A stretch of DNA of 26,003 nt from a candidate division Zixibacteria bacterium SM23_81 (GTDB lineage Bacteria > SM23-81): contig LJUY01000035.1 in assembly GCA_001304015.1 (NCBI GenBank), positions 1 through 26,003 of the forward strand, written 5' to 3'. Each line of letters opens with the position of its first letter. Within the stretch, counting starts at the first letter, position 1. The notes under the pieces are model-generated. The model had not been told where the DNA came from and did no database searches. It saw only the letters and a program-made list of their open reading frames with translations. The position numbers and the translations under genes are program-made. Shown here piece by piece: positions 18,265-22,018 of the stretch.

Positions 18265-18681
18265 CTACTTGGCAAATTTCTCAACCATCTCCTCCACCCT
18301 GCGCTTGATCTCATCCCTGACGGCTCGATAGACCCCGATGGGCTGCTCGTGAGGATCCTCCAGCTCCCACTCTCGCCTCTCGGCTCCGGGGACGACGGGG
18401 CATGCATCGGCCGGACAGCCCATGGTCACCACCACGTCCTGGTCCATCACATCAACTTCTTCTAGACCCTTGGGATGCTGGCGAGAGATGTCCACCCCCA
18501 CCTCCAGCATGACAGCCACAGTTGGAGGATCCACCCGCCAGTGCGGGCTCGTTCCGGCGCTGGAAACCTGAAAACGATCACCACCCAACTCCCTCAGAAA
18601 CCCCTCGGCCATCTGGCTGCGGGCGGCATTGCCCACGCAGATGAACAGAACTCTGATCGGCTTAGACCTCTCACTCTTCAT
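18265..18681 (-). CDS. arsC: Low-molecular-weight phosphatase-fold arsenate reductase ArsC
   Basis: The 138-residue protein has the LMW-PTP P-loop CVGNAARS with nucleophile Cys 15 and Arg 21. A downstream pair, Cys 89 and Cys 94 (MGCPADACP), fits a thioredoxin-coupled arsenate reductase that relays a disulfide, and the acid Asp 109 lies in LEDP. It would reduce arsenate to arsenite in the cytoplasm; a protein phosphatase function is less likely given the extra Cys pair. The frame is open to 18762, but ATG 18681 is preferred (AAGGAGAG five bases upstream, LMW-PTP length). It lies last behind nptA and phoU. No arsenite exporter is in the window. Confidence 0.85.
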   Translation of the reverse strand: MKSERSKPIRVLFICVGNAARSQMAEGFLRELGGDRFQVSSAGTSPHWRVDPPTVAVMLEVGVDISRQHPKGLEEVDVMDQDVVVTMGCPADACPVVPGAERREWELEDPHEQPIGVYRAVRDEIKRRVEEMVEKFAK

Positions 18682-18736
18682 CGATTCTCTCCTTGCCGAC
18701 TTCGTCAATTTCTTCAAAGTGCCAATCTTCCGAGCT

Positions 18737-19417
18737 TCAGAAGATATCTCCCCACTTCTCATCGAAGTAGTCTAGCTTGTGCAGCGGCATGACCACGCTG
18801 GTGGCGATGTTGGAGAGATGAGAGCAAATCCTCTTGAGATGACGAGCCAGGAGTGTGAAGAGAACTGCGTGGCGACACCCAAGACAATCCTCCAATAGCT
18901 CCGAAATCACCTCATCACATTCTTTCGCCAGATGCCGTGCTTTTTCCACCGCTTCGTGACCAAGACCTTTGTCTGATGTACAGAAGGCCTCCACTGTGGG
19001 CACAAAGAGTGTCTCCGTCTCGCGAAGAATTTTCCCGAAACGCTCTTCATATTTGCCCCCGTCCAGCGTACCCCCGAGTTCTTCTGCTACCTCCAATAAG
19101 TTCTTACAAAGATCGCCCACCCGCTCTGCGTCTTTGGTGATGCTCATCAGGATAAGGCTTATCGGGACGTCGGACCCAGGCGCGACGATGAGATGTTCCA
19201 CTAGCTGTTTTCGAATCTTACGCTGCAGATGATTGATCTTACGGTCTGTCTCATAGATCATCTTGTGAACCTCGGGCGACAACTGCTGCTTTCCAGTAAG
19301 CACATCAGCAGTCGGATGATACATATGGACGGCCTCTGCCAGCATTTGTTCCATCTCGGATATCATCTGATTGAGGAGGGGACGCCGTCTGAATGCCTCG
19401 ATGAGTTCCTTAAACAT
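18737..19417 (-). CDS. PhoU-domain protein
   Basis: The 226-residue all-helical protein has PhoU-type three-helix bundles, the pattern ISLILMSITKDAERVGDLCKNLLEVAEEL (split here: ITKDAERVGD is the core motif) and a second bundle containing LARHLKRICSHLSNIA. PhoU proteins gate phosphate uptake through Pst systems or, as here, through a Na/Pi symporter. ATG 19417 has AGGAGGTG just upstream, which overlaps the nptA stop (10-bp gap). The second copy of the metal-binding motif is degenerate. It is the middle gene of the nptA-phoU-arsC operon. Confidence 0.85.
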   Translation of the reverse strand: MFKELIEAFRRRPLLNQMISEMEQMLAEAVHMYHPTADVLTGKQQLSPEVHKMIYETDRKINHLQRKIRKQLVEHLIVAPGSDVPISLILMSITKDAERVGDLCKNLLEVAEELGGTLDGGKYEERFGKILRETETLFVPTVEAFCTSDKGLGHEAVEKARHLAKECDEVISELLEDCLGCRHAVLFTLLARHLKRICSHLSNIATSVVMPLHKLDYFDEKWGDIF

Positions 19418-19427
19418 ACTTCACCTC

Positions 19428-20555
19428 CTACAGCAGTTTGCTTAACAGTATTAACATCACAGGCAGGGCATAAAACGAGCCTATGATAAAGAGGGCGGCA
19501 TACCTCTTCTTTTTAGCGGCAACATCACCAAGCCTCGTTGCCAGGAACATCGGAATTCGCCGCAATGGCCTGAATGGGTATATAAACAAGATGCCACAGA
19601 TGTTAAACAAAAGGTGTACGATGGCGATGATCAACCCTCTGGCGTCACCCGCCAGTGAGGCCATCAGAGCTGTGATGGTGGTCCCGACATTGGCCCCCAG
19701 GGTGATGGGAAAGATTTGGTCCAGCCGGGCGATACCTGCTCCGGCCAGGGGAACCATGAGAGAGGTGGTGACCGAGCTGCTCTGGATGACCGCTGTCACT
19801 CCACACCCCACAGCCATGCCGGTCATTCCGCTTCTGCCCATCAACCTGTCCAGGACGATCTCGGCCCGTTTCAAGGCCAGATTTTTGGCATATTTTACGA
19901 TGAAATAGAGTGAGATAAGCAGCAAGACGACCCCAAAGATGGCCACGATCATAGCAGCGTGCCTCCCGGCAATACTGGTGGTCAAGGAAACGACTAGCTC
20001 AACCGCGGGCTTGACCACCCTCTTCACCGGGCTGGCGAAGGTGACCCCTTCGGTTCCGACCATGAGCGTGGAGATGGCCTGGGCCACCCGGCGCAGAAAG
20101 CCGGTGGCCAATTCCAGGGGAAAAAAGACGGCTACGGTAAGAATGTTAAAGAAGTCGTGCACCGTGGCAGCAGCCATAGCCCTGCGAAACTCCTCCCGCC
20201 GGGTGACGTGCCCCATGGAGACGATGGTGCTGGTCACGGTCGTGCCGATGTTGGCGCCCATGATGATGGGAACGGCGTTCTCTATGGTGAGAATCCCTGA
20301 GGCCACGAAGCCCACGACGGTGCTGGTGGTGGTGGAGGAGCTTTGCACCAGGCTGGTGGCTAAGATTCCTACAAAAAGCCCGATGAAGGGATTCGATGTG
20401 GTGCTGATGAGACGTTCAGCGAATCCGGCGCCGAACATCTTAAACCCGGTGCCCAAAAGCCTCACGCTGACCAAGAATAGATAGAGAAATATCACAAAAC
20501 CGACAAAGCGCAGGATTGTCGTGAAAGGCTTCCGAGCACCGGAAATTGGAGCCAT
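19428..20555 (-). CDS. Na+/phosphate symporter (NptA/PNaS family)
   Basis: The 375-residue membrane protein has inverted-repeat QSSS motifs: QSSSTTTS at residues 71-78 and QSSSVTTS at 258-265. They are followed by GANIGTTVTST and GANVGTTITA, the hallmarks of SLC34/NptA sodium-phosphate cotransporters. Multiple hydrophobic helices fill the rest. It imports phosphate, and arsenate can enter by such carriers, which gives sense to arsC downstream. ATG 20555 follows GGGAGG. A broken gene and a possible attenuator lie directly upstream with no clear promoter between. Confidence 0.93.
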   Translation of the reverse strand: MAPISGARKPFTTILRFVGFVIFLYLFLVSVRLLGTGFKMFGAGFAERLISTTSNPFIGLFVGILATSLVQSSSTTTSTVVGFVASGILTIENAVPIIMGANIGTTVTSTIVSMGHVTRREEFRRAMAAATVHDFFNILTVAVFFPLELATGFLRRVAQAISTLMVGTEGVTFASPVKRVVKPAVELVVSLTTSIAGRHAAMIVAIFGVVLLLISLYFIVKYAKNLALKRAEIVLDRLMGRSGMTGMAVGCGVTAVIQSSSVTTSLMVPLAGAGIARLDQIFPITLGANVGTTITALMASLAGDARGLIIAIVHLLFNICGILFIYPFRPLRRIPMFLATRLGDVAAKKKRYAALFIIGSFYALPVMLILLSKLL

Positions 20556-20613: not shown

Positions 20614-21002
20614 TCAGTCCTCCTCTTGCGGCATCTCTTCTTCTTCCCGAACAGTTTCCTCCACTATGATGGTCGCCTTTTTCCTTCCGGAGATACTACA
20701 GCCTGCGACCACCTCGATCTCATCGCCCAACCTGGCATCGATAATCGTGTACTCTACTCTCTGGATTTGCGAGTCCCCTTGAGACCGAAACTTCTGTCCA
20801 ATGATCTCTTCGCCATTAAGTTTCACCACGATTCTGTCCACAAAGTGCTTCGAACTGCTTTTAACGGTGTGCTACGTAATGATCTCAAGCTCATGTTCTT
20901 TGATATCGAACTCCAGCTTAATACCGGTGGGGGATGACTAGGAGCAGGGCTTACTGTAAGAAATATGAGGCCAACGACAAAGAAAACAATAACTCTCGAC
21001 AT
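20614..21002 (-). pseudogene. Disrupted gene for a small secreted protein (frameshift plus TAG)
   Basis: ATG 21002, with GAAGGAA upstream, encodes a signal peptide MSRVIVFFVVGLIFLTVSPA and then SHPP. At a run of five C (about 20924-20930) the frame changes: adding one C would continue into GIKLEFDIKEHELEIIT, then an in-frame TAG, then HTVKSSSKHFVDRIVVKLNG and on to a normal stop at 20614. The reconstructed protein (about 128 residues) resembles small secreted Ig-fold proteins of the form 'HPP..I.L..D.....L.I.V.H.V....H.I..I.V..NG', loosely like desulfoferrodoxin-type domains. The family name is uncertain. One lesion alone could be a sequencing error; two make decay likely. It precedes nptA by 58 bp. 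Confidence 0.72.
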
Positions 21003-21025: not shown

Positions 21026-21122
21026 AAAAAAACCACAGGTGGAACTTTGGCGTAAGTGAGCGCGCCTCCTGTGGCAAGATAAAAGCAGGAGGTCCGTGAA
21101 CGTGCAAGATCTCTCGACCTCC
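21026..21122 (-). promoter_or_regulatory. Attenuator-like leader with three mutually exclusive stems
   Basis: Reading the minus strand, segment 1 is GGAGGTC (21122-21116), segment 2 GACCTCCTG (21094-21086), segment 3 CCACAGGAGG (21074-21065) and segment 4 CCTGTGG (21039-21033), followed by seven U (21032-21026). Segments 1:2 pair over 7 bp, 2:3 over 7 bp (CCTCCTG/CAGGAGG) and 3:4 over 7 bp. 3:4 plus the U-tract is a terminator, while 2:3 would prevent it. A weak promoter, TTGTCT (21162-21157) and TACAAA (21138-21133) at 18 bp, would start RNA near 21126. It may simply terminate the tRNA transcript. Confidence 0.55.
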
Positions 21123-21165
21123 GCATGATCGATTTGTACAAGGGATGAATTCTTCGAGACAAGAG

Positions 21166-21256
21166 CGGAGAGAGAGGGATTCGAACCCTCGGAGGAGCTT
21201 GTGACCCCTCACACGATTTCCAGTCGTGCACCTTCGACCAGCTCGGTCATCTCTCC
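21166..21256 (-). tRNA. tRNA-Ser (GGA anticodon)
   Basis: The minus strand gives acceptor GGAGAGA (5') pairing with TCTCTCC (3'). It also shows the D-arm, anticodon loop CT-GGA-AA between CACGA/TCGTG, a long variable arm as in class II Ser tRNAs, and TTCGAAT in the T-loop. The discriminator is G and CCA is not encoded. It reads UCC (and UCU by wobble). Confidence 0.92.
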
Positions 21257-21433
21257 GCAGCGATAGTTGAGAGAGTTCTGAGAGTTTGGAGAGTTTAGCG
21301 AAAGATCAATGGCAATAGCTATGGCAATTGGCAATAGGTGATTTCCCGAGCTCCGTATCTTGAATTCCGATGTAACGAGTCTCGGTCTTTCACGATACAC
21401 GATTACCGATCAACGATCCACGGTCTTTAAAAA
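21257..21433. repeat. Short-repeat mosaic between two Ser tRNAs
   Basis: This non-coding spacer carries three blocks: GAGAGTT/GAGAGTTC repeats (about 21269-21296), TGGCAATAGC with TGGCAATTGGCAATAG (21310-21336), and CACGATACACGATTACCGAT-type units (21390-21422). It shares AATGGCAATAGC and ACGATCCACG, in the same order, with the spacer at 17866-18211. Confidence 0.55.
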
Positions 21434-21538: not shown

Positions 21539-22018
21539 TCACTGCTCTCCCTTCTCACCTTCTTCCTTGAGGCGCAACTTTTTGAAAAAGGACCTCAGAA
21601 GATCTGAGGCCTGATCGGCAAGAATCCCTTCGGTTAGTTGAACGCAGTGATTGAGGCGACGATCTTGAACGATGTTAAATAACGATCCGCAAGCGCCGAA
21701 CTTGGGATCCCGGACGCCGAAAACCAAGCGCTTGATCCGAGCCAGCACCAGAGCTCCTGCGCACATGGAACAAGGCTCCATGGTCACGTAGATGCTCGCC
21801 TCCGGGAGCCTCCAAGACTTCTTGTGGGTAGCAGCAGCCCCTATGGCCAATATCTCCGCGTGAGCCGTGGGATCCTGAAGACGCTCCGTTCTGTTGTGCC
21901 CTCGACCAATGATCCTTCCCCCCGAAACGACCACCGCCCCCACAGGTACGTCGCCCTCCCGGTAAGCCGCCTCAGCCTCCGCCAGGGCCTGTTGCATCCA
22001 CTTCTCGTCCTCGGTCAA
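21539..22018 (-). CDS. tadA: tRNA-specific adenosine deaminase TadA
   Basis: TadA converts A34 to inosine in tRNA-Arg(ACG), letting it read CGU, CGC and CGA. The 159-residue protein has the cytidine-deaminase fold with HAE at residues 53-55 (catalytic Glu 55) and PCSMC at 82-86 (zinc Cys 83, 86), preceded by VPVGAVVV and GHNRTE, all typical of TadA. The start is TTG 22018, after GGGAGA; ATG at codon 8 is a possible alternative. It lies 23 nt downstream of the tRNA-Arg(ACG) gene and 18 nt upstream of tRNA-Ser(CGA) on the same strand. Confidence 0.95.
   Translation of the reverse strand: MTEDEKWMQQALAEAEAAYREGDVPVGAVVVSGGRIIGRGHNRTERLQDPTAHAEILAIGAAATHKKSWRLPEASIYVTMEPCSMCAGALVLARIKRLVFGVRDPKFGACGSLFNIVQDRRLNHCVQLTEGILADQASDLLRSFFKKLRLKEEGEKGEQ

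Follow-up and report, generated by a model that had tools for sequence, protein, structure and literature searches.

A conserved hairpin and a terminator behind tRNA-Ser(GGA) in one family of uncultured Zixibacteria

In the window, a stretch of 26,003 nucleotides from candidate division Zixibacteria bacterium SM23_81 (contig LJUY01000035.1), an element at positions 21122–21026 of the minus strand lies between tRNA-Ser(GGA) and an operon of nptA, phoU and arsC. We give about an even chance to the reading that this element closes the tRNA-Ser(GGA) unit at its 3' end, with a constitutive terminator (the 3:4 stem plus U7) and a lineage-conserved hairpin (1:2) ahead of it. Since the switch that the window sequence suggests is not kept in a second genus, an ordinary stop signal together with an unexplained conserved hairpin appears most likely. 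What stands from the comparison is a putative short RNA element, unseen in Rfam and strongly conserved in sequence within one uncultured family, in which hairpin 1:2 is the part worth testing. The initial annotation had described an attenuator-like leader; its hairpin 1:2 and its 3:4 terminator were both recovered at the same place in the second genus, but the switch through 2:3 was not.

Hairpin and terminator behind tRNA-Ser(GGA)

The element contains three 7-bp pairings, all perfect Watson–Crick. On the minus strand, segment 1 is GGAGGTC (21122–21116), segment 2 is GACCTCC (21094–21088; read as CCTCCTG, 21092–21086, where it pairs with segment 3), segment 3 is CAGGAGG (21071–21065, inside GCCACAGGAGG at 21075–21065) and segment 4 is CCTGTGG (21039–21033), with T7 directly after it at 21032–21026. 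Hairpin 1:2 (21088–21122) holds 21 nt between its strands, starting with GAGAG right after the 5' strand. The alternative helix 2:3 occupies 21065–21092, and the intrinsic terminator 3:4 (21026–21075; GCCACAGG.AGG ... CCTGTGGT plus T7) pairs CCACAGG with CCTGTGG. The helices share segments and are thus mutually exclusive, and all three 7-bp stems are present in the sequence much as first annotated. When the upstream part was shuffled and the terminator kept, the 7-bp arrangement appeared in 0 of 2000 shuffles, a measure that combines hairpin and antiterminator in one. The whole stretch folded only mildly better than its shuffles (z −1.7).

Conservation was judged from two homologous sequences, the window and its counterpart in a different genus of its family (Candidatus Zixiibacteriota bacterium CSMAG_1598, record DAOVRJ010000173.1; hereafter G001). 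The CSMAG label occurs in a cold-seep genome catalogue (PMC10491686). Hairpin 1:2 looks to be under constraint because its stem strands and GAGAG (GGAGGTCGAGAG and GACCTCC) match at all 19 positions while the surroundings reach only 42–50%, namely 42% in the gap between tRNA and hairpin, 44% in the inner loop after GAGAG and 50% in the linker. The longest identical run gave p = 0.02 against column permutation. As the hairpin does not vary, it offers no compensatory changes to prove an RNA stem, and half sites that are identical in two genera and never vary would also suit a DNA operator, in which the dyad GGAGGTC-N21-GACCTCC would bind a regulator and would not act as an RNA structure. However, no other exact copy of the dyad was seen in the family, and near matches with two mismatches in G000 numbered 20 against 63 for a control pattern, which makes the operator the least likely of the rival explanations. 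The half sites also lie about 28 bp apart, or about 2.7 helical turns, which is an unusual spacing, and we consider an operator very improbable.

The 3:4 stem has the form of an intrinsic terminator, with a G+C-rich stem (GCCACAGG/CCTGTGGT) and T7 directly after it. In G001 the corresponding stem is GCCATAAG/CTTATGGT, and T7 follows it there as well. The terminator is fully paired in both genomes, with one mismatch at the same place, and carries two double-sided changes (C-G to U-A and G-C to A-U). Slid versions of the alignment all paired at 44–56% only; in a shuffle control, which is weak with two sequences, 114 of 500 reached the observed level. A simple terminator scan missed the stem because its loop exceeds the limit of 8 that the scan allows. 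The scan listed only a site upstream of the tRNA genes, a terminator-like stem at 21611–21591 (minus strand) with nine pairs followed by CTTTTT, close to the tadA 3' end and before tRNA-Ser(CGA).

The gene for tRNA-Ser(GGA) (21165–21256, minus strand; ARAGORN and Rfam) is directly upstream of the element, and its transcript would run into it. The initial annotation had named, as the reading opposed to its own, a terminator that only ends the tRNA-Ser transcript, and this is the simplest interpretation; by reading, 3:4 with T7 is the first terminator past tRNA-Ser on the same strand in both genomes. RNA polymerase would arrive from tRNA-Ser, or begin at a weak promoter that closely follows the gene. 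Hairpin 1:2 would form once its 3' strand emerges, 3:4 would form next, and transcription would stop at about 21026. Such a stop would close the tRNA unit and shield the nptA-phoU-arsC operon, whose expression would depend on read-through or on a promoter of its own. This would leave an RNA of about 100 nt that may persist in stable form or serve as a small RNA; the 2:3 pairing would be a property of the window sequence only.

The double-sided changes in the stem, together with T7 and an identical hairpin 1:2 in both genomes, support termination of the tRNA unit. So does G002, a genome of another family, where a plain terminator comes after the same tRNA-Ser and no nptA orthologue is found at the locus. 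The element resembles an intrinsic terminator of a tRNA unit in its stable G+C-rich stem with T7, in its place as the first terminator past tRNA-Ser and in its double-sided changes. On the other hand, it lies about 90–130 nt past the tRNA, where the terminator in G002 stands about 10 nt behind it, and it has an extra identical hairpin in front. A bare terminator leaves the 19 identical hairpin bases unexplained, with flanks of 42–50%, and, as expected of a designed switch, nascent prefixes of the window prefer 2:3 up to the point where segment 4 appears.

The 2:3 pairing and attenuation

In an attenuator of nptA-phoU-arsC, a signal would part segment 1 from segment 2, so that 2:3 forms, no terminator arises and polymerase reads through; in a weaker form, the trigger would act on 1:2 without 2:3. 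A regulated attenuator of this kind is possible but unsupported, and we hold it to be unlikely, with roughly one chance in a handful. The segment order of 1:2, 2:3 and 3:4 plus a U run in the window is that of trp-type leaders and terminating riboswitches. The window itself offers points in its favour. A 7-bp 2:3 arose by chance in 0.9% of trials in which hairpin 1:2 was fixed while the terminator arm was permuted. Equilibrium folding of nascent prefixes from the window predicts 2:3 as the dominant helix up to the synthesis of segment 4, favoured for about 30 nt before that segment emerges, together with an alternative 5' hairpin in which segment 1 is closed by a GAGA loop.

The counterpart in G001 does not share these properties. 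There, 2:3 shrinks to a 5-bp helix (ACCUC/GAGGU; two mismatches in the 7-pair register) that about 17% of permutations yield by chance, and it is never populated in prefix folding. Across both genomes, 12 of 14 cells of 2:3 are paired with no double-sided change. The minimum-energy fold is 1:2 plus 3:4 in both cases (−32.5 kcal/mol in the window and −37.5 kcal/mol in G001), and imposing 2:3 carries a penalty of 4.7 kcal/mol for the window and 14.2 kcal/mol for G001. As 2:3 is favoured in window prefixes and never in G001, a switch is conceivable from the folding model for the window sequence alone and is not a kept feature. The antiterminating role first assigned to 2:3 thus did not carry over to the second genus, where the helix has zero predicted occupancy. 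A pseudoknot between GAGA and the linker was rejected, as its third loop would be too short (2 nt).

Attenuation would also call for a promoter, and no significant one was found. A matrix scan gave weak sigma-70-like hexamers (TTGTCT-18-TACAAA, 21133–21162, minus strand) as a putative promoter, but these were equalled in 9% of shuffled gaps (p about 0.09), and scores of similar height occur at several further sites nearby. The counterpart hexamers in G001, ATTACA-17-TATAAC, lie at the same place and are similarly weak (shuffle p about 0.15). A consensus promoter scan listed none. The transcription start that had been predicted about four bases before segment 1 was not confirmed. Furthermore, reading of both genomes revealed no leader ORF whose start codon is kept in a shared frame. 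No start codon in G001 corresponds to the window's ATG at segment 1, and the frames differ; a leader-peptide attenuator was therefore dropped, as the open frames at segment 1 share neither start nor frame.

The element differs from such attenuators, trp-type leaders and terminating riboswitches alike, in that 2:3 is not conserved, no leader peptide is kept, a conserved core like that of an aptamer is absent apart from a single short hairpin, and Rfam has no match. We consider it highly improbable that it is a lineage-specific attenuator, possibly a riboswitch, of the Na-phosphate cotransporter and arsenate reductase operon, in which the conserved GGAGGUCGAGAG hairpin would sense phosphate, arsenate or another signal and decide whether the terminator forms.

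Neighbouring genes and gene order in relatives

The operon that the initial annotation placed downstream is indeed present, but the first gene downstream of the element is a different one. It is a small secreted-protein ORF (20614–21002, minus strand; sequence reading and tblastn) with an ATG at 21002, a good ribosome site and a signal-peptide-like start, which is broken at two points, one a frameshift and the other an in-frame TAG at 20874–20872. As the genomes are draft assemblies, these lesions could in principle be assembly errors. No homologue of the intact part was found in the relatives by tblastn, and the ORF had no match in Pfam or PDB; a desulfoferrodoxin-like identity, considered for it, was dropped and is not claimed for that reason. 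In the window this ORF of about 390 nt separates the terminator from nptA, which stands against the attenuator, and it is absent from G001.

Beyond it lie nptA, encoding a Na/Pi cotransporter (19428–20555; PF02690, NCBIfam Na_Pi_symport), phoU (18737–19417; PF01895, with TIGR02135 below its cut-off) and a gene for an arsC-like protein with the low-molecular-weight phosphatase fold (18265–18762; PF01451), for which arsenate reductase models score under their curated cut-offs. All three are on the minus strand, and nptA starts 471 nt past the T run. Just ahead of the nptA ribosome site is an 8-bp inverted repeat (GGTGAGGT/ACCTCGCC, 20604–20575, minus strand); a different short hairpin, CCGCA/TGCGG, occupies the same place before nptA in G001.

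Only four genomes represent the phylum in the collection that was compared. G001 matches the window in gene order, with tadA, tRNA-Ser(CGA), tRNA-Ser(GGA), the element, nptA, phoU and arsC; no broken gene intervenes there, nptA starts about 165 nt past the T run, and its product is 77% identical to that of the window. In the two genomes of another family (G002 and G003), the two tRNA-Ser genes follow tadA and the element is missing; no nptA orthologue is found at this locus, and the sole matches are distant (33–34% identity) and on other contigs. The kept operon order, and the joint presence of element and nptA in 2 of 2 members of the family with neither here in 2 of 2 of the other family, would fit an attenuator of the operon.

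Further copies and a possible small RNA

No true copy besides G001 was found when 84,980 species were scanned with the pattern GAGGTCGAGAG...GACCTC...TTTTTT. The scan returned two records, G001 itself (L035) and an Anaerolineales record (L034), which we put down to chance, as by reading it has no terminator stem and its flanks look like coding DNA. A covariance model, the check that had been proposed at the outset, recovered no further true homologue in 386 genomes, only the two known copies and two weak matches (E 3e-4 and 4e-3 per genome); both of the latter are antisense inside long ORFs and were likewise dismissed as chance. So was the strongest DNA match away from the locus in G001, which sits within an infB-like ORF. 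In Rfam 15, only tRNAs matched at the gathering score, in line with the original remark that the element fits no known riboswitch class; up to E = 10, only chance and tRNA-overlapping matches were added.

The compact anatomy of a hairpin followed by its own terminator, identical in the hairpin in both genomes and preceded in each, at an equal offset, by weak promoter-like hexamers, would also suit a small RNA of about 100 nt that acts in trans, or a functional tRNA trailer of that length, made from a promoter past tRNA-Ser or cut from the tRNA precursor. In E. coli, 3'ETS-leuZ is a tRNA external transcribed spacer that acts as an RNA. The element would resemble it as an RNA that remains from the 3' part of a tRNA transcript and ends at a terminator. 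Against a small RNA, the promoter is not significant, no target is known, the loop bases past GAGAG are just 44% identical, and the element is single-copy in two genomes only; we regard this explanation as doubtful, with about one chance in five.

Between the two tRNA-Ser genes of the window (21262–21295, minus strand) lies an array of a 9-nt unit, AACTCTCNN, and a further array is found at 1690–1840 of L006. For a three-unit pattern of it, with at most two mismatches, G000 has 41 occurrences (reversed control, 4) and G001 has 225 (reversed control, 18), and G002 and G003 have none. AACTCTCNN is a dispersed, family-specific short repeat.
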